Assembly (NCBI RefSeq): GCF_030268085.1
Contig: NZ_BSDE01000004.1
Coordinates: 248,001-312,000 of the forward strand
Length of the DNA: 64,000 bases
Reading direction: 5' to 3'
From: Geothrix limicola
Lineage (GTDB): Bacteria; Acidobacteriota; Holophagae; Holophagales; Holophagaceae
In this document: one piece after another, positions 40,093-51,780 of the stretch
Layout: each line of letters opens with the position of its first letter
Numbering within the stretch: the stretch's first letter is position 1
Made by a program: the position numbers and the translations under genes
The notes under the pieces: model-generated
What the model was told of the DNA's origin: nothing
Database searches by the model: none
Seen by the model: the letters and a program-made list of their open reading frames with translations, nothing else

Positions 40093-41448
40093 ATGACCAT
40101 TCAATTGACAGATCTTGGAAAAGCCGTGCTCGAAACCGAATACGCGGTGCGCGGTCCCATCGTGGCGCGGGCGGCCGAGCTGGAGAAGCAGGGACGCGAG
40201 ATCATCTACTGCAACATCGGTAACCCGCAGTCCCTGGGGCAGAAGGCCCTCACTTGGAACCGGCAGATCCTCGCCCTCTGCGAGTATCCCGAGCTCATGA
40301 CTCAGGCGCCCGGGGCCTTTCCGGCGGATGTGGTCGAAACGGCCAAGGCGATCCTGGGCGGCACCAGGCATGGCCTGGGGGCCTACAGCGAAAGCCGCGG
40401 GGTGCGCTTCATCCGCGAAGCCGTGGCCGAGTTCATCCTCGAACGCGACCACATCGGCGTGGATCCCGACGCCATCTTCCTCACGGATGGCGCCAGCAAG
40501 GGCGTGCAGACCATCCTACGCCTGCTCATCTCGGGACCCCAGGACGGCATCATGGTGCCCATCCCGCAGTACCCGCTCTATTCGGCCACCATCACGCTCT
40601 ATGACGGACGCATGGTGCCCTACTACCTCGACGAGGCCAACGGCTGGAAGCTGAGCCACACCATGCTGGAAACCTCCCTGGCCCAGGCGAAGGCCCAGGG
40701 CACCCATGTGAAGGCCATCTGCGTGATCAACCCCGGCAACCCCACGGGGGCCGTGCTGGACGAAGCCAACATCGAGATGATCATCGCGTTCGCGAAGGAG
40801 CACGGGCTCTCGATCCTGGCCGACGAGGTCTATCAGGAGAACATCTACCTGGCGGGTGATGAGTTCACCTCGTTCGCCAAGGTGCTCCACCAGATGGACG
40901 TGAAGGATGTCTCCCTCTTCAGCTTCCACTCCTGCTCCAAGGGTTTCCTCGGCGAATGCGGCGTGCGCGGCGGCTACTTCGAGTACCGGAACGTGCCCGA
41001 CGACGTGGCCGCGCAGATCCTCAAGCTGCAGAGCGTGAGCCTCTGCGCCAACCTCGCGGGCCAGACCGCCACCTACGCGATGGTGCGTCCCCCCAAGCCC
41101 GGCATGCCCTCGTACGCCCAGTACGCCGCGGAGAAGGGTGGCATCCTCGATACGCTCAAGCAGCGCGCCATCCTGCTGGCCGAGGGCCTGAATCGCGTGG
41201 AAGGCATCAGCTGCAACGTCATCGCGGGGGCCATGTACGCCTTCCCCAGCATTACCCTGCCAGCCGGGCGCTCGGATTTCGACTACGCCATGGCCTTGCT
41301 GGAACAGACGGGCATCTGCGTGGTGCCGGGATCGGGTTTCGGCCAAGCCGAAGGTACCGCCCACTTCCGCACCACCATCCTGCCCCCCACCGAGAAGATC
41401 AAGAAGGTCGTGCAGGCGCTCGGTGATTTCCATCGCACCTACAAGTGA
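40093..41448 (+). CDS. Alanine-type aminotransferase (class I/II, eukaryotic ALT-like)
   Basis: A 451-residue PLP aminotransferase. It starts MTIQLTDLGKAVLETEYAVRGPI and has CNIGNPQSLGQK, the long N-terminal form of eukaryote-like alanine aminotransferases. Other motifs are TDGASKGVQT, INPGNPTGAV, LADEVYQEN and the PLP lysine in SCSKGFLGECGVRGG. It probably interconverts alanine plus 2-oxoglutarate with pyruvate plus glutamate. An SDR gene follows after 17 bases. Confidence 0.88.
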   Translation: MTIQLTDLGKAVLETEYAVRGPIVARAAELEKQGREIIYCNIGNPQSLGQKALTWNRQILALCEYPELMTQAPGAFPADVVETAKAILGGTRHGLGAYSESRGVRFIREAVAEFILERDHIGVDPDAIFLTDGASKGVQTILRLLISGPQDGIMVPIPQYPLYSATITLYDGRMVPYYLDEANGWKLSHTMLETSLAQAKAQGTHVKAICVINPGNPTGAVLDEANIEMIIAFAKEHGLSILADEVYQENIYLAGDEFTSFAKVLHQMDVKDVSLFSFHSCSKGFLGECGVRGGYFEYRNVPDDVAAQILKLQSVSLCANLAGQTATYAMVRPPKPGMPSYAQYAAEKGGILDTLKQRAILLAEGLNRVEGISCNVIAGAMYAFPSITLPAGRSDFDYAMALLEQTGICVVPGSGFGQAEGTAHFRTTILPPTEKIKKVVQALGDFHRTYK

Positions 41449-41465
41449 TTCACCAGGGAGTCCCC

Positions 41466-42233
41466 ATGCGCCCCGAGCATCCCATCGTCCTGATCACCGG
41501 CGCCTCCAGCGGGTTTGGCGAAGCCATGGCCCGGCTGCTGGCCTCCCAGGGCTGCCATCTCGCGCTGGGCGCCCGTCGCGTGGAGCGCGTGAAGGCCCTG
41601 GCCGAGGAACTCCAGAAGGCCTACGGCATCCGGACCTTCGCGGGCTCTGTGGACACGCGCCACACCGCCAGCGTGGATACCTTCGTGGCCGAGGCCGTCG
41701 AGGCGCTGGGTGGCCTGCACGTAATCGTCGCCAATGCGGGCCTGGCCAGCGGCACCTTCAAGATGTGGGAGACGCCGGACGAGGATCTCGAGGCGATGAT
41801 GCGCACCAACGTCGAAGGTGTGGTGAAGACCATTCGCGCCGGGCTTCCGCACGTGCGCAAGGCGGGCTGGGGCCACGTGTTCTTCATTGGATCCACCGCA
41901 GGGCACCAGGCCTACGAGGGCGGTAGCGTCTACTGCGCGTCGAAGTTCGGCGTGAAGGCCATGGCGCGCAGCCTGCGCCTGGAAGTGAACGGCGAGCAGA
42001 TCCGTGTGACCTCCGTGGATCCGGGCATGGCCGAGACCGAGTTCTCCAACGTGCGCCTGAAGGACGACGCCAAGGCCGCCGCCGTCTACCAGGGCGTGAA
42101 GCCCCTCACGGCCTACGACGTGGCCGAATGCGTGCGCTGGTGCCTCATGCTGCCTGATCATGTGAACATCGACGAAATCCAGGTGAAATGCACTGACCAG
42201 GCCGCCGTCCACAAGCTGCACCGCCGATCCTAG
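41466..42233 (+). CDS. SDR-family NAD(P)-dependent oxidoreductase (YdfG-like)
   Basis: A 255-residue short-chain dehydrogenase. The nucleotide site is TGASSGFGEAMA, the NAG motif is present (VANAGLA), and the catalytic Ser-Tyr-Lys is seen in IGSTAGHQ and VYCASKFG. It most resembles YdfG, a 3-hydroxy acid (serine/threonine-type) dehydrogenase. ATG 41466 has aggga upstream. It is co-directional with the aminotransferase and may share its transcript. Confidence 0.85.
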   Translation: MRPEHPIVLITGASSGFGEAMARLLASQGCHLALGARRVERVKALAEELQKAYGIRTFAGSVDTRHTASVDTFVAEAVEALGGLHVIVANAGLASGTFKMWETPDEDLEAMMRTNVEGVVKTIRAGLPHVRKAGWGHVFFIGSTAGHQAYEGGSVYCASKFGVKAMARSLRLEVNGEQIRVTSVDPGMAETEFSNVRLKDDAKAAAVYQGVKPLTAYDVAECVRWCLMLPDHVNIDEIQVKCTDQAAVHKLHRRS

Positions 42234-42339: not shown

Positions 42340-42406
42340 GTATTGTCGAGTCCATTTCTGATATATTAAGGATCAGATCCGAAAGTCCCAGACCCGGGAG
42401 GTGTCC
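42340..42406 (+). promoter_or_regulatory. Candidate promoter and operator for the peptidase-hydroxyproline gene cluster
   Basis: This AT-rich stretch stands out from GC-rich surroundings. It contains the palindrome CTGAT-N9-ATCAG (42358-42376), which overlaps a -10-like TATATT (42362-42367). The arrangement would suit repression by the GntR protein encoded downstream. A -35 box at standard spacing is not clear. gggagg lies at 42395-42400. Confidence 0.4.
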
Positions 42407-43789
42407 TTGTCCTCAACCCAGTGCCACACGGAAAGGCGGGTCCGCCTGCAGAAGCAGATGGAGGGCGGTCTGCTGCTTTTGCTGGGGAATGACGAGAGTC
42501 CCATGAACTACCGGGACAACGCCTATCCGTTCCGCCAGGACAGCACCTTCCTCTACTTCTCGGGCATCAACCGCCCCGGCTGCGCCATCGTGATCGATCT
42601 GGACGAGGGGCGGACGACGCTCTTCGCCGATGATGCGACGGTGGACGACCTGGTCTGGACCGGGCCGCTTCCCAGGGTCCAGGAGTTCGCCAGCTCGGCT
42701 GGCATTGCGGATTCGGCACGGTTCCATGCCCTGGGCGACGTGCTCCGCAAGGCCCAGTCCGCGGGCCGTCCCATCCACTTCCTGCCCCCCTACCGCGCCG
42801 AGCACCGGATCCTGCTGCACGATCTGCTGGGGCTTTCGCTCAAAGGGCAGAGCGCGGCCGTCTCCGTGCCCTTCATCCGCGCGGTATCCGAGCTCCGCAT
42901 CCGCAAGAGCGCCGAGGAAGTGGCGGAAATCGAGCGGGCCGTGAACACCTCGGTGGACATGCACTTCGAGGCCATGGCCATGGCCCGGCCGGGCATGAAG
43001 GAATCGGACATCGCGGGGCGGATGACGGAGATGGCCATCGCCGCGGGCGGGGGCCTGTCCTACCCCGTCATCGCGACGGTGCATGGCGAGGTGCTTCACA
43101 ACCATGACTACACGCACACGCTGAAGCCCGGCCAGCTCTTCCTGCTCGACGCGGGCGCGGAAACCGCGAGCGGTTACGCGGGGGACCTGACCACCACCTT
43201 CCCCATCGCCCCGACCTTCACGAGCCGCCAGCGGGACATCCACAACCTCGTCCTCAAGGCCTTCCTGGATGCGGTGGATGCGCTCAAGCCCGGCGTGCCC
43301 TACCGCGAGATCCACCTGATGGCCTGCCGCACGCTGGCCGGAGGGCTGAAGGACCTGGGCCTGATGAAGGGCAACGTGGGAGATGCGGTGGACCTGGGCG
43401 CCCACGCGCTCTTCTTCCCCTGCGGCCTGGGACATCTGATGGGCCTCGACGTGCACGACATGGAGAACCTGGGCGAGGTGTGGGTGGGCTACCAGGGCCG
43501 CCCCAAGAGCACCTTGTTCGGGCTGAAATCCCTGCGCCTGGCCCGGGAGCTGGAAGAATGCTTCGTCCTCACGGTCGAACCCGGGATCTACTTCATGCCC
43601 GGCGTGATTGATCGTTGGAAAGGCGAGGGGCGCTTCCTCGATTACATCAATTACGAAGCGCTCGATGCCTACCGGGATTTCGGCGGGCTGCGCATCGAAG
43701 AGGATTTCCTCATCACCGCAAACGGGCGTCGGCTCCTGGGCCGGCCCAAGCCGCGCACGGTGGAGGAATTGGAAGCGCACCGATCCTGA
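42407..43789 (+). CDS. Xaa-Pro aminopeptidase (aminopeptidase P, M24B)
   Basis: A roughly 460-residue metallopeptidase with an aminopeptidase-P N-terminal domain (MNYRDNAYPFRQDSTFLYF) and a pita-bread catalytic domain. The metal ligands are visible as LLDAGAE, AGDLTTTFPI, CGLGHLMGLDVHD, TVEPGIYF and RIEEDFLIT. It removes the N-terminal residue from peptides with proline (or hydroxyproline) in second place. The preferred start is TTG 42407, with gggagg 6 bases upstream; GTG 42401 is in the same frame but too close to that site. It heads the cluster with GntR, a peptide transporter and the glycyl-radical pair. Confidence 0.88.
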   Translation: MSSTQCHTERRVRLQKQMEGGLLLLLGNDESPMNYRDNAYPFRQDSTFLYFSGINRPGCAIVIDLDEGRTTLFADDATVDDLVWTGPLPRVQEFASSAGIADSARFHALGDVLRKAQSAGRPIHFLPPYRAEHRILLHDLLGLSLKGQSAAVSVPFIRAVSELRIRKSAEEVAEIERAVNTSVDMHFEAMAMARPGMKESDIAGRMTEMAIAAGGGLSYPVIATVHGEVLHNHDYTHTLKPGQLFLLDAGAETASGYAGDLTTTFPIAPTFTSRQRDIHNLVLKAFLDAVDALKPGVPYREIHLMACRTLAGGLKDLGLMKGNVGDAVDLGAHALFFPCGLGHLMGLDVHDMENLGEVWVGYQGRPKSTLFGLKSLRLARELEECFVLTVEPGIYFMPGVIDRWKGEGRFLDYINYEALDAYRDFGGLRIEEDFLITANGRRLLGRPKPRTVEELEAHRS

Positions 43790-43825
43790 AGGACCTAGGC
43801 TGGACGATCGAGGGAGGTTCCAGGC

Positions 43826-44506
43826 ATGACCCAAGGCAACCCGATCATCGTGAAGTCGCTGCGCGAGCAGGTCTACGAGTACCTGAGGGCCGAACTGAAA
43901 CGCGGAAGCCTGGATACGGGCGCCTTCCTGGATTTGAACCGGCTCGCCGCTGACCTCGGCATCAGCCGGACGCCCCTGCGGGACGCCCTGATCCAGCTGG
44001 AGGTGGAGGAATTCGTCACCATCTCGCCCCGGCGCGGTGTGGCGGTGAGAAGCCTCGACCTGCGGGACATCCAGGAGATCTACCAGCTGGTGGGGGCCCT
44101 GGAATCCGCCGCTGTCCTGGCCGTCGGGCCCACCATGACGCCCTCGGATTTCGTTCATCTGAAGAATCTGGCCTACCGGACCAGGCGCGCCATCGACGAG
44201 GGCGACCACGAGGGCTACTACGAATCCAACTACGCCTTCCATGACTTCTTCCTCGACCGCCTGGGCAATGGGCGGATCAGCGCCCTCGTCCACTCGAAGA
44301 AGCAGCAGCTCTACGACTGGAACCGCAAGTTCGAGCGGCTCCACGTCAACTGGGAGCACAGCGGCATGAACGAGCACGAGGAGGTCATCCGCCTGCTTGA
44401 GACGGGGGCCTTCCAGGAGGCCGCGGCCTACCTGAGGGATGTGCACTGGGGCTTCAACGTGCAGGAATCCTTCGTCCACCAGGTCTATTTCCAGGAGCAG
44501 GGATGA
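43826..44506 (+). CDS. GntR-family transcriptional regulator (FCD/FadR subfamily)
   Basis: A 226-residue regulator. Residues about 8-75 form the winged helix (LAADLGISRTPLRDALIQLE), and residues about 82-215 a helical FCD ligand domain with metal-site histidines (NYAFHDFFLDRLG, NEHEEVI). It most likely senses an amino acid or organic acid and controls the surrounding genes. It follows the peptidase gene after 36 bases, with gggagg upstream, and overlaps the transporter start by 4 bases. Confidence 0.9.
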   Translation: MTQGNPIIVKSLREQVYEYLRAELKRGSLDTGAFLDLNRLAADLGISRTPLRDALIQLEVEEFVTISPRRGVAVRSLDLRDIQEIYQLVGALESAAVLAVGPTMTPSDFVHLKNLAYRTRRAIDEGDHEGYYESNYAFHDFFLDRLGNGRISALVHSKKQQLYDWNRKFERLHVNWEHSGMNEHEEVIRLLETGAFQEAAAYLRDVHWGFNVQESFVHQVYFQEQG

Positions 44507-45786
44507 GCACAACCGAACGGCATCCCGCGGGGCTCCGCACCCTGTTCCTCACCGAGATGTGGGAGCGCCTCGGCTTCTACATCCTCATGGCCATCCTGAC
44601 CCTCTACATGGACCAGGAGATGGGGTGGAACGACGCCACCAAGGGCACCATCTACGGCGCCTTCCTGGGGCTCAGCTACTTCTTCCCCGTGGTGGGCGGC
44701 TGGCTGGGCGACCGGGTGCTGGGGCGCACGGGCACGGTGCGCACGGGGGCCGTGCTCATGACCCTGGGCTACGCGAGCCTGGGCTGCTCCTCGCGAGTTG
44801 CGGTCACGCCCTTCTTCGCGGGCCTGCTGCTGGTGGGCATCGGCGCGGGCATCCTCAAGGCCAACCTGTCCGTGCTGGTGGGCAGTTTGTATGAAGACCG
44901 GCCGCAGCTCAGGGACGCGGGCTACAACCTCTACTACATGGGCATCAACATCGGCGCCGCAGTCGCCCCGCTGGTGGCGACGGCCATGAGCATCTGGTTC
45001 GGCAGCTACCGGGTGTCCTTCTGGATCGCCGCCGTCGGGATGGTTTTCGCCCAGGTCTTCTTCCTGCGAGGCCTTCGGCATTTCCCCGCGACCAGCGCCG
45101 CAGCGGCGGAGCAGCAGCGTCTGGAGGATTCCGCGGCGCCGGAGGAATTCATGCCGCGCCTGCTCGCCCTGGGCGGGCTCTTCCTCGTGGCCATCTTCTT
45201 CTGGACGGCCTTCTACCAGAACGGCTTCGCCATGACGCTCTTCGCGCAGCGCTCCACGAAGGCCTACAACCTGCTGCGCCCCGAGACCTACCAGTTCTTC
45301 CAGCCCTTCTTCATCCTCGTCGTCACGCCGCCCATGCTGGCCCTGTTCGCGCGGATGAAACGGAAGAACTGCGAGCCCTCCACGCCCGGCAAGATCCTCG
45401 CCGGCATGCTCATCATGGGCGGCTCCATGCTCGTCATGGCCTTGGCCAGCCGTTTGGGCGGCAACCTGGACCGGCCCCTCATGTCGCCGGGCTGGCTCAT
45501 CGGCGCCTACGGCTTCATCACGCTGGCGGAAGTGCTCATCTCGCCCATGGGGCTCTCCTACGTCTCCAAGGTGGCGCCGCCCAAGATCCGCGGCCTGATG
45601 ATGGGCTGCTGGTTCGCAGCCACCGCCACGGGATCATACGGCTCCGGCTTCCTCGGGCGCAGCTACGGGCGCTTCCCCCACGACCACTACTACCTGCTAC
45701 TGGCGGCCCTGCTGGGCTTCTCCGCCTGCCTGACCCTGCTCCTCTTCCGGCGCCTCAAGACCTTCGATACCCAGGTCGTCCCGTGA
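44503..45786 (+). CDS. POT/PTR-family proton-coupled peptide transporter
   Basis: A 427-residue protein with about 12 membrane helices. The N-terminal LFLTEMWERLGFY matches the ExxER helix 1 signature of proton-dependent oligopeptide transporters, and GWLGDRVLGRTG follows in the loop after helix 2. It imports di- and tripeptides. It overlaps the regulator gene and the activase gene by 4 bases each. The context suggests proline/hydroxyproline-containing peptides as cargo. It is somewhat shorter than typical bacterial members (about 490-500). Confidence 0.87.
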   Translation: MSTTERHPAGLRTLFLTEMWERLGFYILMAILTLYMDQEMGWNDATKGTIYGAFLGLSYFFPVVGGWLGDRVLGRTGTVRTGAVLMTLGYASLGCSSRVAVTPFFAGLLLVGIGAGILKANLSVLVGSLYEDRPQLRDAGYNLYYMGINIGAAVAPLVATAMSIWFGSYRVSFWIAAVGMVFAQVFFLRGLRHFPATSAAAAEQQRLEDSAAPEEFMPRLLALGGLFLVAIFFWTAFYQNGFAMTLFAQRSTKAYNLLRPETYQFFQPFFILVVTPPMLALFARMKRKNCEPSTPGKILAGMLIMGGSMLVMALASRLGGNLDRPLMSPGWLIGAYGFITLAEVLISPMGLSYVSKVAPPKIRGLMMGCWFAATATGSYGSGFLGRSYGRFPHDHYYLLLAALLGFSACLTLLLFRRLKTFDTQVVP

Positions 45787-46685
45787 ACACGGGCTTGGGT
45801 TCGGTCCCTGCGGGAAAAGGCCGGATCTTCAACATCCAACGCTACTCCCTCCAGGATGGGCCCGGCCTGCGCACCACCGTGTTCCTGAAGGGCTGTCCGC
45901 TGGATTGCGCTTGGTGCCACAACCCCGAAAGCCAGTCCCTGGCCAGGGAGCTGATCACCCAGGAGAACCGCTGCATCGCCTGTGGCAGCTGCTTCAGCCT
46001 CTGCGGACCGGGAGAGGATCCGAGCTCGCGACCCGAGGCCTGTGTGGAGATCTGCCCCACGGGCGCGCGGCAACTGCTGGGCCGCGACGTGGACGTGGAC
46101 GAGCTGATGGATGAGGTGTTGCGGGATCAGCCCTTTTTCGATGAGTCCGGCGGCGGCGTCACCCTCTCCGGCGGAGAACCGCTGCTGCAGCCGGTCTTCG
46201 TGAAGGACATGCTCGCGGCCCTCCGGCGTCGCAGTGTGCACACGGCGCTCGATACCTGCGGCCTCGGGCGCTTGGAGGATCTGCTGGAGGCCGCGGCCCT
46301 GGCGGATCTGGTGCTCTTCGACCTGAAGCACATGGATGACGTCAAACACCGCGAATGGACCGGCGCGGGCAATGCCGCGATCCTCGCGAACCTGGAGTCC
46401 CTGGGCCAGGTGCATGGCCAGATCTGGATCCGCGTGCCCGTCATCCCAGGTGTCAACGACGACGTGGAGAACCTCGAGGCCACGGCCCGCTTCGTGGCCG
46501 GGATCCCCGGCGTGCGGCGCCTGGACCTGCTGCCCTATCACAGCACCGGCGCGGCCAAGTTCCGCCGCATCGGAAGGCAGTATCTCCTGGACCACGTCCA
46601 GCCGCCCACCGCCGAGCGCATGGTGGGCCTGGCGGATCTGTTCCGGGCCCACGGCATCCCCGCCACCATTGGAGGCAACCTATGA
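45783..46685 (+). CDS. Glycyl-radical enzyme activating protein (radical SAM)
   Basis: A 300-residue activase. The radical SAM cluster motif is CPLDCAWCHNP (CxxxCxxC). Extra ferredoxin-like cysteines follow (CIACGSC, then CVEICPTGA), as in activases of HypD, CutD and glycerol dehydratase type. GGVTLSGGEPLLQP binds S-adenosylmethionine. It cleaves S-adenosylmethionine to set the glycyl radical on the partner enzyme. It starts at GTG 45783 within the transporter stop and overlaps the next gene by 4 bases, a strong sign of partnership. Confidence 0.95.
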   Translation: MNTGLGSVPAGKGRIFNIQRYSLQDGPGLRTTVFLKGCPLDCAWCHNPESQSLARELITQENRCIACGSCFSLCGPGEDPSSRPEACVEICPTGARQLLGRDVDVDELMDEVLRDQPFFDESGGGVTLSGGEPLLQPVFVKDMLAALRRRSVHTALDTCGLGRLEDLLEAAALADLVLFDLKHMDDVKHREWTGAGNAAILANLESLGQVHGQIWIRVPVIPGVNDDVENLEATARFVAGIPGVRRLDLLPYHSTGAAKFRRIGRQYLLDHVQPPTAERMVGLADLFRAHGIPATIGGNL

Positions 46686-49048
46686 ACGAGCGTACCGCCC
46701 GCCTGCGCCAGGAAAGCCTGGACGCGATCCCCTCCCTCAGCCCCGAGCGGGCGGAGCTGATCACGGCCTTCTATCGGGAACACCTGGGCAAGCACGCCAT
46801 TCCCGTGATGCGCGCCCTCGCCTTCAAGTACATCTGCCAGCACAAGACCATCTGGATCGGCGAGGGCGAGTTGATCGTCGGCGAGCGGGGGCCGCGCCCC
46901 AAGGCCGTACCCACCTATCCCGAACTCACCTGCCATTCGGCGGAGGATCTGCGCATCCTCGACACCCGGCCCAAGACCCGCTACCAGGTGGACGAGGCCA
47001 TGATCCGTGTCTATGAGCGGGAGATCATCCCCTTCTGGCAGGGCCGCAGCCTGCGGGACCAGCTCTTCCAGACGCTGCCCCAGGCCTGGCACGACGCCTA
47101 CGAGGCGGGCGTCTTCACCGAATTCATGGAGCAGCGCGCGCCGGGCCACACCGTGCTGGACGACAAGATCTACCGGAAGGGCCTGCGGGATTTCCAGGCG
47201 GACATCGCCTGCTCCAAGGCGCTGCTGGATGTCGAAAAGGATCCCGAGGCCGAGGACAAGCGCGCCCAGCTGGAGGCCATGGACATCGCCTGCGAGGCGC
47301 TGATCCTGCTGGCGGAACGTCACGCCGCCGAAGCGGAGCGGCTCGCGGCCCAGACCACGAACGCCACCCGCGCCGCGGAGCTGCGGCGCATCGCCGAGGT
47401 ATGCCGCCGGGTGCCTGCCCAGGCGCCGCGGGATTTCCATGAGGCGCTCCAGTACTACTGGTTCTGCCACCAGGGCGTCATCACCGAACTCAACGGCTGG
47501 GACGCCTTCAGCCCGGGCCACCTGGACCAGCACCTCTGGCCCTTCTACCAGCGCGGTCTGAAGGAAGGCAGCCTCACGCGTGAAGGGGCCCGCGAACTGC
47601 TGGAATGCTTCTTCGTGAAGTTCAACAACCACACCTCGCCTTCGAAGGTGGGCGTCACGGCGGCGGAAAGCGGCACCTACACAGACTTCGCCAACCTCAA
47701 CCTGGCGGGGCTTCTGCCGGATGGCAGCGACGGCAGCAACGAGCTGACGGACCTGCTGCTGGACATCATCGACGAGATGCACCTGCTCCAGCCCAGCAGC
47801 AACGTGCAGGTTTCGCGCAAGACGCCGGACGCCACCCTCAAGCACGCGCTGAAGGTGATCCGCAACGGTTACGGCTTCCCCTCGCTCTTCAACGCCGACG
47901 CCGTGGTGGAAGAACAGCTGCGCCAGGGCAAGTCGCTAGAGGATGCGCGCGCCGGCGGGTGTTCGGGCTGTGTGGAGGTCGGCGCCTTCGGCAAGGAGGC
48001 CTACATCCTCACGGGCTACTTCAACCTCTCCAAGATGCTGGAGCTGGCCCTGCACGACGGCCTGGATCCGCGCACAGGGCGCCAGCTGGGACCGCACACG
48101 GGCGCGCCTGAATCCTTCCGGAATGTCGACGACCTCCTCCAGGCCTTCGAGGCTCAGACCCATCACTTCCTCGACATCAAGATCCGCGGCAACCAGGTCA
48201 TCGAGCGCCTCTACGCCACGCGCATGCCCGCGCCCTTCCTGTCCGTGCTCACGGACGACTGCATCCGGAAGGGCAAGGACTACAACGCCGGCGGCGCCCG
48301 TTACAACAACACCTTCATTCAGGCCGTGGGCATCGGCAGCCTCACGGACAGCCTGTCGGCCATTCAGCAGCTCGTCTTCGAGCGGGGCGACCTGGCGCTG
48401 CCGGAGCTGGTCTCGGCCCTGGACGTCGATTTCGAAGGTCAGGAGGTCCTGCGCCAGCGCCTGCTGAACAAGACACCCAAGTACGGCAACGATGACGCGG
48501 CGGCGGACGACCTCATGGTCCGCGTCTTCCGTTTCCTCTTCCACGCCATCGATGGCCGGCCCAACACCAAGGGCGGCGCCTACCGGCTGGAGATGCTGCC
48601 CACGACCTGCCACGTCTACTTCGGCCAGGTCTGCCAGGCTTCGGCCGATGGCCGCAAGGCCGGAGAACCGCTTTCCGAGGGCATTTCGCCCGTGCAGGGC
48701 GCGGACCGCTCGGGCCCCACGGCCGTGCTGCGCTCCGCCGGGAAGATGGATCACGTGAAGACCGGCGGCACCCTGCTCAACATGAAGTTCACGCCGGGAC
48801 TGCTGGAAGGCGAAGGCGGCATCGACCGGCTGCACCACCTCGTGCGGACCTACTTCAAGATGGACGGTCACCACATCCAGTTCAACGTCGTCACCGCCGC
48901 CAAGCTGCGGGAGGCCCAGGAGAAGCCCGAGAGCCACCGCGACCTCATCGTGCGCGTGGCGGGCTATTCCGACTACTTCTGCGACCTCTCCCTCGAGCTG
49001 CAGGACGAGATCATCCGCCGCACCGAGCACGACACGTTCGCGCAGTGA
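46682..49048 (+). CDS. hypD: Glycyl-radical enzyme, probable trans-4-hydroxy-L-proline dehydratase
   Basis: This 788-residue glycyl-radical enzyme has catalytic Cys430 and Glu432 in SGCVEVGAFGKEAY and the glycyl radical at Gly761 in RVAGYSDYF. Those positions are four residues before the ones I recall for Clostridioides difficile HypD (Cys434, Glu436, Gly765; about 789 residues), and blocks such as NKTPKYGNDD, GRPNTKGG and EGISPVQGADR resemble it. HypD removes water from trans-4-hydroxy-L-proline to give pyrroline-5-carboxylate, which ProC reduces to proline. The enzyme is oxygen-sensitive. Alternatives such as choline lyase or diol dehydratase are less likely. proC is not in this window. Confidence 0.82.
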   Translation: MNERTARLRQESLDAIPSLSPERAELITAFYREHLGKHAIPVMRALAFKYICQHKTIWIGEGELIVGERGPRPKAVPTYPELTCHSAEDLRILDTRPKTRYQVDEAMIRVYEREIIPFWQGRSLRDQLFQTLPQAWHDAYEAGVFTEFMEQRAPGHTVLDDKIYRKGLRDFQADIACSKALLDVEKDPEAEDKRAQLEAMDIACEALILLAERHAAEAERLAAQTTNATRAAELRRIAEVCRRVPAQAPRDFHEALQYYWFCHQGVITELNGWDAFSPGHLDQHLWPFYQRGLKEGSLTREGARELLECFFVKFNNHTSPSKVGVTAAESGTYTDFANLNLAGLLPDGSDGSNELTDLLLDIIDEMHLLQPSSNVQVSRKTPDATLKHALKVIRNGYGFPSLFNADAVVEEQLRQGKSLEDARAGGCSGCVEVGAFGKEAYILTGYFNLSKMLELALHDGLDPRTGRQLGPHTGAPESFRNVDDLLQAFEAQTHHFLDIKIRGNQVIERLYATRMPAPFLSVLTDDCIRKGKDYNAGGARYNNTFIQAVGIGSLTDSLSAIQQLVFERGDLALPELVSALDVDFEGQEVLRQRLLNKTPKYGNDDAAADDLMVRVFRFLFHAIDGRPNTKGGAYRLEMLPTTCHVYFGQVCQASADGRKAGEPLSEGISPVQGADRSGPTAVLRSAGKMDHVKTGGTLLNMKFTPGLLEGEGGIDRLHHLVRTYFKMDGHHIQFNVVTAAKLREAQEKPESHRDLIVRVAGYSDYFCDLSLELQDEIIRRTEHDTFAQ

Positions 49049-49056
49049 AGGGCTTC

Positions 49057-49164
49057 TAATCGCGAATGAACGCGAATGAAGTGAGATGAGTATCTGGGGA
49101 TCCCAGCCGGTCACCCCAGTTTTTCATTCGCGCGCCCGAAGGGCGATTCGCGCCATTCGCGGTT
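49057..49164. repeat. Inverted and direct repeats of the CGCGAATGAA type
   Basis: Two direct copies of cgcgaatgaa (49061-49080) are matched on the right by reverse-complement copies (ttcattcgcg at 49123-49132, and ttcgcgccattcgcgg further on), with an inner cgcccgaagggcg hairpin. The block fills the gap between the convergent hypD-like and MFS genes and can form a large hairpin, perhaps acting as a terminator. Confidence 0.75.
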
Positions 49165-49178
49165 CGCTTTTGAATCGT

Positions 49179-50324
49179 TCAGTCCCGGCCAAGCTTCAGG
49201 GCCACAGGCAGGGCGGCGAGCATGGCGAGGGCGCCGAGCGCCCAGCCCATGCGGTAGCCGTGGTGGCCGATGACCCAGCCGAGGGTGAAGCTGCCGAGGC
49301 CGATGCCGGAATCGAAGGCGAAGAGCAGGGCGCCGAAGGCGGATCCCCTTCGCTGGGGGTCGACGGATTCCAGCAGCTTCGCGTTGAGCAGGGTGTGGAG
49401 CATGCTGTAGCCCGCGCCGTAGAGCAGGGCTGAGGCCATGTGTCGCGCCATGCCGCCGGGCAGGGCCGCCAACAGGGCCATGCCGGCGAAGGCGCCGATC
49501 AGCATGCCCGGCAACTTGCGAATGGGACGCTTGCCGAAGCCCCGCTTCACCATGGCGATCCGCATGAGGACCATGCCTACGGCCATGAAGGAGAGGAAGG
49601 CTGAGGGCAGGGGCATGCCCAGGGCCAGGCCCTCCTGGGCCGTGTAGCTGCCGAGGGCGCCGTAGCCCAGGGCCACGCAGAACAGCACCATGCAAGGCGC
49701 CAGCACCACCGCATCGGGCCATTTGAAACCTTCGGCGCGGCCGTGGGGATGGTCCTTGGGCAGGATGCTGCCGAGGGCGCCCAGCAGGAGGAAGAGCAGG
49801 GCCAGGTACCACCCGATGGGCGCGAAGCCCCAATGCTGGAAGATCCACATGCCCAGCAGGGGTCCGAAGATGACGCCCCCCGGGCTGGCCAGGCCGTAGA
49901 GGCTCATGCCGTCGGCGCGGCGATCCTCGGGCAGCACGTGGGCCAGCGAGGCCAGCGTGGCCGTCAGCAGCCCCGACCAGACGACACCGTGGGGAAAGGC
50001 CAGGAGGTAGAAGCCCCACCGGACGGGCATCAGGGCATAGGCCGCGAGGAAGCCCGCATAGAGCAAGGCGCAGGTGACGACGAGGCGGCGGTGGCCCACC
50101 CGGTCGCCCAGGGGCCCTGTGAACAGCGCGCCGAGGGCGCTGCCCGCCGTGAAGAGGCTCATGAAGCGTCCGCTCTCCGCCAGGCTGGCGCCCAGTTCCC
50201 GCAGGCGCAGGGGCACCGTGGGGAAGAGCTGGAAGGCCGCGAAGAAGGTGACGAAGGTGAGGGCCCAAACCAGGGCGAACTGGCGGGTCAAGAGCCGGGG
50301 CTTGGATACTGACAGATCCGTCAT
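49179..50324 (-). CDS. MFS transporter, copy 2 of a tandem pair
   Basis: A 381-residue major facilitator protein with 12 membrane helices. After helix 2 the motif GPLGDRVGHRR matches the MFS signature (GxxxDRxGRR). It shares several blocks with the next MFS gene, including [16 protein letters not shown] and LLYGAGYSMLHTLL, so the two are tandem duplicates. The substrate is unknown. ATG 50324 has ggaggt 5 bases upstream. The 127 bases between the two genes hold GC-rich inverted stretches and no reading frame. Confidence 0.88.
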   Translation of the reverse strand: MTDLSVSKPRLLTRQFALVWALTFVTFFAAFQLFPTVPLRLRELGASLAESGRFMSLFTAGSALGALFTGPLGDRVGHRRLVVTCALLYAGFLAAYALMPVRWGFYLLAFPHGVVWSGLLTATLASLAHVLPEDRRADGMSLYGLASPGGVIFGPLLGMWIFQHWGFAPIGWYLALLFLLLGALGSILPKDHPHGRAEGFKWPDAVVLAPCMVLFCVALGYGALGSYTAQEGLALGMPLPSAFLSFMAVGMVLMRIAMVKRGFGKRPIRKLPGMLIGAFAGMALLAALPGGMARHMASALLYGAGYSMLHTLLNAKLLESVDPQRRGSAFGALLFAFDSGIGLGSFTLGWVIGHHGYRMGWALGALAMLAALPVALKLGRD

Positions 50325-50451
50325 GCGGCACCTCCGCCTAACGCACGCGGTGCGTGCTCCGGCGCGCTCCGCTTGCCGAGGCGGAGCCTCCCTGTGCCGC
50401 ACCCTTCGGGCTTCGGCTTTGCCAAAGTGGCACTTCGCTCCTGCTGCGTGC

Positions 50452-51648
50452 TCATCCTTCCAGGATGCCAGATGGATCAGGCTCGGTTGTCATGGCCGCA
50501 CTCCGCCGGACGATGCGGCGGGCCACGGGGATGGAGAGGGCCATGAGGACGGCGCCGATGGCCCAGCCGTGGCGGAAGCCCGAGTGCTCCATCACCCAAC
50601 CCAGGCCCAGGGCACCGAAAGCGGTGGCCGCGTCGAAGGCGAAGAAGAGGGCTCCCACGGCGGCCCCGGTGCGTTCGTGGGGCGTGGTGGCGAAGATGTC
50701 CATGAGCAGCAGCGTATGCACCATGCCGTAGCCGGCCCCGTAGATGAGCCCCGCGAGCAGGTGGCGGATCATGCCGCCGGGCAGGAAGGCCAGCAGGGCG
50801 TACCCCGCGGAGGCCAGGGCGATCATGTAGGGCAGCAGGCTCACGGGGCGGCGGCCCATGCCCGTGAGGGCCAGCAGGCCGCGGATGGCCATCATGCCCA
50901 GGGCGAAGCAGGTGAGGAAGGTGGCGGGCAGGGCCATGCCCAGGGCCTTGGCCTCCTGGGCGCTGTAGGGCGGCATGGGGCCGAAGCCGAGTCCCACCAG
51001 CGTCATCACGGCCACCGTGCCCCAGACCGCGCGGTCCGGCCACTGGAAGGCCGCGGACTGGATCTCCCGGCTGCTTTCGCGGGGCAGGGATCCGATGAGC
51101 AGGTGCAGCAGGACGAAGACTCCCGCCAGTAGGACGAGCATCCAGGCGAAACCCAGGTGCGGCATGAGCCAGAGTCCCACCAGGGGCCCCACGGCGACGC
51201 CGCCGGGCCCCGTGAGGCCGAAGAGGGACAGGCCCTGGGCCCGGTGCTCGTGGGAGAGGATGACGCCCACCTTGGCCACGGAGGCGGTGCGCAGCGCAGA
51301 CCACAGGAGGCCGTGTAGGGGCGCCAGCAGGTAGAAGACCCAGCGCACCCGCAGCAGCGCGTAGACGAGCAGGATGGCCACCACGGCGAAAGAGGCCACC
51401 CGCAGCACCCGGCGGGGCCCGAGGCGGTCTCCCATGGGCCCCGTGAACAGCGATCCGAAGCCCGAGCCCAGCATGAAGGCGGTCTGGAAGCGCCCGCTTT
51501 CGGCAAGGCTCGCGCCCAGTTCGCGCAAACGCAGGGGCACGACGGGAAACAGCTGATAACCCGCCGCGAAGACGAGGAAATAGAAGCAGCAGAGGACCAG
51601 GAACGGGGCCGTCAGGAGGCGGTTTTTGGGGGCGTCGGTTCGCGCCAT
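50452..51648 (-). CDS. MFS transporter, copy 1 of a tandem pair
   Basis: A 398-residue major facilitator protein with 12 membrane helices and [11 protein letters not shown] after helix 2. It aligns by eye along its length with the downstream gene ([31 protein letters not shown]). The substrate is unknown; drug or metabolite export is possible. ATG 51648 (MARTDAPKN) has ctggag just upstream with short spacing. It is divergent from the chemoreceptor gene. Confidence 0.87.
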
Positions 51649-51780
51649 GACTCCAGGATGACAGGCCGTGCGGCGGCCCGTTTTCCCGCGATTTCTCAAG
51701 AACCTCGAAAAAGGAACCGATTCGTCGTGAATCCGTCCACATGGTCTGTCATTTCACAGTTCGATCTCGGGGGTCTTCCC

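Follow-up and report, generated by a model that had tools for sequence, protein, structure and literature searches.

Hydroxyproline (Hyp) is a modified amino acid found in collagen and plant walls. The locus described here is a plus-strand cluster of five genes at positions 42407-49048 of a 64-kb window, the whole stretch of DNA analysed (G000:C4:248001-312000; genome G000 comprises 4.23 Mb in 20 contigs, is 97% complete, and has its nearest relatives, among those named below phylum, in the Holophagaceae, Acidobacteriota). In order, the genes encode an M24 peptidase, a GntR/FCD regulator, a POT-family carrier, a radical-SAM activase and the glycyl-radical enzyme HypD, trans-4-hydroxy-L-proline dehydratase. 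We consider it probable, judging from the sequence and its relatives, that the cluster is an anaerobic operon for using Hyp that arrives as small peptides. A preliminary description of this DNA had reported five co-directional genes, the last four with 4-base overlaps, and the coordinates bear this out: overlaps at 44503-44506, 45783-45786 and 46682-46685 join the last four genes and 36 bp separate the peptidase gene from gntR, an arrangement in which all five would share a single transcript.

We propose that the POT carrier would import X-Hyp (and X-Pro) di- and tripeptides with protons and that the peptidase, a prolidase-like M24 enzyme, would split the imide bond, freeing Hyp. The activase would place a radical on Gly761 of HypD, from which it would move to Cys430, and HypD would take water from Hyp to give pyrroline-5-carboxylate (P5C). 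This product could become proline through ProC or glutamate through P5C dehydrogenase, both encoded elsewhere. The GntR/FCD protein would bind a palindrome about 30 bp upstream and control the operon, in whichever sense, the signal probably being Hyp or a Hyp-derived compound.

The glycyl-radical enzyme and its product

The hypD gene (46682-49048) encodes a protein of 788 residues that scored 1204.3 bits against the HypD equivalog NF043068 of NCBIfam (cut-off 1100), with the runner-up family at 634. Among solved relatives, Clostridioides difficile HypD ranked first (977 bits), ahead of glycerol dehydratase (489) and HplG (414), and 414 of 781 aligned residues (53%) are identical to the C. difficile enzyme. 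All 14 active-site residues given for HypD in the available text of the eLife 2020 structure paper (PMC7077986) are kept, the window numbering being that of C. difficile minus 4. The preliminary description had placed Cys430/Glu432 and Gly761 in parallel with HypD; these residues indeed equal C. difficile Cys434, Glu436 and Gly765, with the CXE motif and the radical glycine present (codons 47969-47971 for Cys430, the predicted thiyl-radical cysteine, and 48962-48964 for Gly761). Equivalents of the Hyp-site residues, including Asp278, Ser334, Asp339, Phe340, Tyr450 and Thr645, are likewise retained. A tree of 28 rows, which covered 21 of the 80 loci described below and was drawn without CutC, classical PFL and three further loci whose glycyl-radical enzymes are of other kinds (L102, L105 and L110), grouped the window enzyme and C. 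difficile HypD in one clade of 23 rows (support 100/100) that excludes glycerol dehydratase, PflD and a further three glycyl-radical enzymes found in the family; the outsiders include long branches. Clustering with another glycyl-radical clade and loss of the Hyp-specific residues, two outcomes that the preliminary description had named as refuting its reading, were thus not seen. With high confidence, we assign the enzyme, earlier called HypD-like, as a true HypD, and from its residues it is expected to dehydrate Hyp to P5C.

The activase (45783-46685) passed the general cut-off for its activating-protein subfamily (330 bits versus 174). Its score for the HypD-activase equivalog NF043069 (317.7 bits) is under the cut-off of 425, yet this is its best equivalog; we file it as a glycyl-radical activase only.

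A search for proC elsewhere in the genome had been suggested as a check on the pathway. Other contigs of the genome encode ProC (271 bits, cut-off 197) and a P5C dehydrogenase (TIGR01236, 773 bits, cut-off 614), which makes both a route to proline and one to glutamate available, and a protein with a proline dehydrogenase domain (83 bits, cut-off 27) is encoded on another contig. The D-proline reductase PrdA had no match in the genome and none in the control genomes either, so this result is not evidence of absence.

The preliminary description held that a dedicated peptide-import version of the HypD pathway outside gut Firmicutes would be notable. A scan of the genome collection found 239 relatives of HypD, the best 80 of which we kept as loci, many of them short. 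These best 80 belong to Acidobacteria, Geomonas, Planctomycetes, Verrucomicrobia and further groups; HypD is thus common outside gut Firmicutes, and we dropped its occurrence there as a point of novelty. Among 77 genomes of the family, 26 had some match, comprising 18 with HypD over the cut-off, four with partial or split genes that we counted as HypD (G062, G063, G064 and G071) and four with other enzymes (G023, G025, G031 and G051). In the genus of the window genome, HypD occurs in 9 of 47 genomes.

The M24 peptidase and its association with HypD

The first gene of the cluster (42407-43789, TTG start behind GGGAGG, with a GTG at 42401 likewise open) encodes a protein with Peptidase_M24 and AMP_N domains. 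The nearest solved relative is human prolidase, PEPD (188-189 bits), and aminopeptidase P scores 157 bits at most. The NCBIfam equivalogs for PepP (170.3 bits against a cut-off of 465) and PepQ (155.1 against 339) were not reached. In the alignment to human prolidase, the five metal ligands and the equivalents of PEPD His255, His377 and Arg398 are all present; according to the available part of PMC8438212, these serve in metal binding or in holding the dipeptide. The Arg398 column shows Arg in the PepQ and Gly in the PepP of the same genome, and, in the rows compared, aminopeptidase P (5wze) is shorter than prolidase across this stretch. The peptidases associated with HypD form one clade of 20 rows (support 96/99) in a tree of 27 rows, distinct from PEPD and from the PepP, PepQ and third M24 protein of the window genome, several of the outsiders being long-branched.

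On account of these scores, the Arg398 equivalent and the separate clade, we describe the peptidase as prolidase-like and do not file it as PepP or PepQ. The name aminopeptidase P, used in the preliminary description, was dropped in view of the sub-cut-off scores and the prolidase Arg. Our confidence that the enzyme is a prolidase-like member of its own M24 clade is good, and it would be predicted to cleave X-Pro and X-Hyp dipeptides. G072 (L144:4155-5543) and G071 (L146:4121-5503) each hold a further copy of the peptidase in which two metal-ligand positions are altered (276 and 452 in PEPD numbering); these copies are possibly non-catalytic paralogues.

All five genes and their upstream flanks recur in G018 and G033, making a chance arrangement unlikely; the downstream pair of MFS carriers is common to G033, and the G018 contig stops earlier. 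At the same site G044 has gntR-activase-hypD and G030 has activase-hypD only. Three genomes of genus g9 (G066, G067 and G070) carry peptidase-gntR-activase-hypD without POT, and in other families the order is gntR-activase-hypD-peptidase (G169, G241, G206 and G095) or activase-hypD-peptidase (G096). The peptidase is thus combined with HypD in two layouts or more. A DPP-IV-type gene adjoins the HypD-associated peptidase in G065 and G073, and in G073 this peptidase also adjoins an M24 peptidase of the type found beside POT2, a second carrier described below.

The association extends beyond gene neighbourhoods. At an orthologue threshold of at least 550 bits, whole peptidase genes were found in 12 of the 77 family genomes, and 12 of 12 have HypD. 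Across the phylum (247 genomes at least 85% complete) we used an E-value of 1e-90 for the peptidase, set after the family search and before the phylum search, and of 1e-150 for HypD. The latter gave matches in 43 genomes, of which 39, including those with fragments (G192, G220 and G240), were counted as HypD; the four excluded as other glycyl-radical enzymes (G110, G171, G236 and G279, full-length, 511-543 bits) all have the peptidase, and including them the overlap is 35/43. The peptidase clade is present in 53 of the 247 genomes, comprising 31 of the 39 HypD genomes and 22 of the other 208 (Fisher 5e-18 with kinship ignored, a value overstated because the genomes are related). At the level of families, it occurs in 15 of 21 families with HypD and in three other families (68 families assumed). 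Of the 31 co-occurring genomes, seven have the peptidase gene within or next to the HypD operon and G154 has it 13 kb off; the remaining 23 have it on a different contig or at a distance of about 1 Mb or more. In the single-contig genome G065 the distance is 2.4 Mb, whereas in G071, G072, G073 and G074 the two genes are on separate draft contigs, so that distance is not proven. The peptide link, which the preliminary description had offered as conjecture, gains support from this co-occurrence and from linkage in different layouts.

The POT carrier

The assignment of the third gene (44503-45786) to the POT carriers is confirmed by its PTR2 domain (168.6 bits, cut-off 27), an ExxER motif (EMWER) and a score of 243.8 bits for the oligopeptide:H+ symporter subfamily (cut-off 130.2). 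Its closest solved chains are bacterial di/tripeptide:H+ symporters, and we name it a putative POT-family (PTR2) di/tripeptide:H+ symporter, presumed to run inward. That its substrates are di- and tripeptides containing Hyp is a proposal we hold with moderate confidence.

The three genomes with the complete cluster (G000, G018 and G033) also carry a sister copy, POT2, which is 62-65% identical to the window POT (support 100/99, in a tree that omits G199 and one long row). The POT2 gene is followed by an M24 peptidase gene and then a DPP-IV-type peptidase gene. In the window genome these three overlapping genes form a second peptide operon on contig 1 (L137:4452-9213), and neither HypD nor the operator described below was found in the fetched L137 stretch. 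In the 247 phylum genomes (threshold E 1e-90), the POT clade occurs in 16, of which 12 have HypD and 14 the peptidase clade; eight of the 16 come from one family, f41, and at the family level 6 of 7 have HypD. Four of seven further POT loci (G138, G270, G199 and G096) have as a neighbour a homologue (548-585 bits) of the M24 peptidase that follows POT2, and the loci of G154, G288 and G181 have no such neighbour. This type of carrier is thus often found with M24 peptidases, and the HypD-linked POT appears to be a duplicate that the cluster recruited.

The GntR regulator and a candidate operator

The regulator (43826-44506) has a GntR helix-turn-helix domain and an FCD domain, both over the Pfam cut-offs (55.7 and 55.4 bits, respectively). 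Comparison of 18 upstream stretches yielded a palindromic consensus, TCTGATAT-N5-ATATCAGA, and the window contains an imperfect palindrome of this kind, TCTGATATATTAAGGATCAGA, at 42357-42377, just outside the interval 42407-49048 that fits the operon and some 30 bp 5' of the peptidase start. It is the sole match to TCTGATATNNNNNATATCAGA with up to three mismatches in the window (two mismatches, 0.01 expected in shuffles), and its matrix score is 22.8.

The matrix was built from ten sites, the window's excluded, and one base in it was mistyped. A scan of the 80 loci and the window (1.17 Mb) gave 14 matches of at least 20, in 11 loci and the window, compared with one in three simulated replicates combined. 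All 14 sit at the start of a peptidase, gntR or activase gene of a HypD cluster. Such sites occur in 9 of 12 HypD loci that carry GntR versus 2 of 68 that do not, although six of the nine positive loci had fed the matrix (L002, L047, L062, L068, L072 and the window contributed nothing to it). Three GntR-bearing loci were missed: L043 ends at a contig edge, L077 has a site of 16.7 and L076 has none at 14. Eight further loci outside the matrix (L127, L128, L132, L133, L148, L158, L159 and L161), some of them close kin of training loci, score 31 to 38.5, and G063 has a site of 21.3 5' of its activase gene. There was no match of at least 14 in ten GntR-less family loci, the upstream stretch being present in six of these (L119, L120, L123, L124, L129 and L130), nor in the fetched DNA of G062, which excludes the stretch upstream of gntR. 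In the POT2-type stretches, the operator is absent at a score of at least 11 from L137, L150, L151 and L164-L166, and L167 has only a weak match of 15.0.

The split of 9/12 versus 2/68 makes the palindrome the likely operator of the GntR protein, with exceptions in G065 and G154 that are considered below, and our confidence in the regulatory role of the GntR protein is good. In genus g7, a gene for a C69-family peptidase, on the opposite strand, separates gntR from the activase or peptidase genes (L147:3054-4745, called by domain scan, and L149:2640-4286, called by similarity).

Genes of 3-hydroxyproline type near HypD in other lineages

Genes of the trans-3- and cis-3-hydroxyproline dehydratase types accompany HypD in several relatives. 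A cis-3-hydroxy-L-proline dehydratase gene (524 bits, cut-off 500) immediately precedes the operator and gntR-activase-hypD in locus L074, from Aminicenantes. In a planctomycete (L049:10403-13087), HypD is followed by an AcnX-type cis-3-hydroxyproline dehydratase (422 bits, under the cut-off of 700) and a reductase of the ornithine-cyclodeaminase family. In G154, an operator site of 28.9 lies between divergent genes at L161:11023, 65 bp 5' of an aldose-1-epimerase-type gene and about 240 bp 5' of a sodium-dependent carrier gene, so its target gene is unsure. Within this stretch (L161:5544-12271), the co-directional neighbours of the carrier are sulfatase-type, pyrroline-2-carboxylate-reductase-type and trans-3-hydroxyproline-dehydratase-type genes, the last scoring 400.8 bits, under its cut-off of 540. 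Because 3-hydroxyproline is typical of collagen, these genes hint at collagen-like food in the G154, L074 and L049 lineages. No 3-hydroxyproline genes were seen in the window's own cluster, the part of that genome in which they were sought.

The two Aminicenantes clusters, L074:3770-11964 and L075:3437-8669, both hold a cis-3-hydroxy-L-proline dehydratase with GntR, activase and HypD (by similarity in L075), and that of L074 holds two M24 peptidases. In G154, a DPP-IV-type gene is divergent from activase-hypD (L161:15650-15911), with sites of 38.0 and 19.6 between them.

From these comparisons we put forward, as a tentative and wider proposal, that a GntR/FCD regulon not yet described, with the operator above, may govern the anaerobic use of Hyp peptides in Acidobacteriota and their neighbours, that within it the HypD-associated M24 clade would cleave X-Hyp dipeptides after import and HypD would act on 4-hydroxyproline, and that in some lineages 3-hydroxyproline dehydratases, DPP-IV-type peptidases and carriers share the neighbourhood, and perhaps the regulon, for collagen-like food. 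The proposal is held at this level because the G154 site is not clearly tied to the 3-hydroxyproline genes.

Alternative explanations

Several observations weigh against an operon dedicated to Hyp peptides. The peptidase scores under the PepP and PepQ cut-offs, as given above, and a promoter scan found no sigma-70-like promoter upstream of the operon. Many HypD genomes lack the peptidase: 10 of 22 in the family, 8 of 39 in the phylum and, in the genus of the window genome, 6 of 9, which lack POT as well (completeness is 84-86% for some of these drafts). In the reverse direction, G060 has a 116-residue piece of the peptidase (64% identical) and no HypD was found there, which reduces the strict family overlap to 12/13. 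Only four of the best 80 HypD loci contain a peptidase of the window type at 450 bits or more (L002, L003, L064 and L074) and only L002 a close POT; HypD-linked POT is known only in G000, G018 and G033, all of one genus. We selected 102 neighbour proteins and scanned 50 of them; GntR/FCD was found in six and M24 in two, most neighbour families being met once. The operator is also misplaced in two genomes, lying 5' of the distant peptidase-gntR pair and not of activase-hypD in G065, and 5' of activase-hypD and not of gntR-peptidase in G154. Finally, the co-occurrence of peptidase and HypD could come partly from a shared anaerobic, protein-eating life style.

One alternative is a general proline-peptide operon, in which X-Pro dipeptides would be the substrates of the peptidase and POT, and HypD would just be carried along on the same transcript or under the same regulator, using whatever Hyp accompanies proline. 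Human prolidase accepts both kinds of dipeptide, releasing Pro or Hyp from X-Pro and X-Hyp (PEPD, M24B; available text of PMC8438212), POT2 stands beside M24 and DPP-IV-type peptidases without HypD in the fetched stretch, and the peptidase clade occurs in 22 of 208 genomes that have no HypD. We nevertheless think this explanation rather unlikely, as the clade tracks HypD strongly (31/39 versus 22/208), the peptidase is separate in the tree from the other three M24 proteins of its genome, and the HypD neighbourhoods of G154 and L074 hold 3-hydroxyproline-type genes that would be unneeded for proline alone. The absence of the other three genes beside activase-hypD in many loci, including the same site in G030, and the restriction of POT linkage to three related genomes could instead mean that the functional unit is HypD with its activase, the peptidase, gntR and POT being accidental neighbours retained by recent descent. 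This appears improbable for the cluster as a whole, given that the peptidase adjoins HypD in differing orders in several families and co-occurs with it at a distance, and that the operator accompanies GntR-bearing HypD operons; it is harder to exclude for POT alone. A different substrate for the glycyl-radical enzyme, whether glycerol, another diol or Hyp itself in a C-N cleavage of the kind that HplG performs, has in its favour the common superfamily and the presence of solved HplG among the relatives, but we regard it as highly improbable in view of the margin in bit scores for HypD (977 versus 489 and 414) and the retention of every one of the six Hyp-site equivalents named above. The use of peptide-borne Hyp is the explanation we retain, so that with the corrections above the preliminary reading is largely upheld, and the comparison with relatives suggests that both the peptide-cutting gene and the conserved DNA switch belong to the HypD pathway.

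Relation to known systems

HypD and its mechanism have already been described, and in gut Clostridiales it is encoded near P5C reductase, with proline passing into Stickland fermentation (available text of PMC7077986); proC is near hypD in some gut Clostridia (available text of PMC9044972). The window enzyme shares with these systems the 14 residues, the adjacent activase and the expected product, P5C. The window cluster differs in that proC is on another contig and a peptidase, GntR and POT are present instead. Its peptidase resembles human prolidase in the residues listed above, but belongs to a clade separate from PEPD, PepP and PepQ, and its prolidase-like activity is a prediction.

In C. 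difficile, itself a HypD organism, the transcript of the M24 prolidase CD3442 was raised in toxin-positive infection, and collagen and hydroxyproline use are discussed in that connection (PMC7815924, in the portion available). CD3442 is thus likewise an M24 Xaa-Pro peptidase linked with collagen or Hyp use, but no hypD operon, POT or GntR partner is described for it in that portion. A survey of Acidobacteriota genomes reports hydroxyproline degradation as enriched in one lineage group (PMC11245096, in the text available).

Aerobic bacterial hydroxyproline operons use an epimerase/oxidase route, some with GntR-type regulators. The GntR-type control of Hyp use is a likeness to the window operon, which differs in its oxygen-sensitive HypD route and predicted peptide import and has no 4-hydroxyproline epimerase. 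In a limited literature search on HypD, hydroxyproline, prolidase, transporters and GntR, we met neither this operon nor the peptidase clade nor the operator. The pathway from Hyp through HypD is thus known, and the part that appears new is its tie, in Acidobacteriota, to a regulator and to the import and cleavage of peptides. What is known of HypD comes mainly from gut bacteria, and the same radical chemistry is predicted here in Acidobacteriota. The candidate operator and the HypD-associated peptidase clade would offer a direct sequence route to hydroxyproline regulons, and as markers they let one ask where collagen and cell-wall protein go under anoxia.

Flanking genes

Upstream of the operon lie genes for an aminotransferase (40093-41448) and a short-chain dehydrogenase (41445-42233), followed by 173 bp before the peptidase gene. 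Downstream, a stem resembling a terminator is present at 49148-49162, and the nearest neighbour is a convergent MFS carrier gene on the minus strand (49179-50402). This gene is the first of two adjacent MFS carrier genes on that strand (49179-51699), a pair that is kept at the HypD site in G033, G044 and G030.

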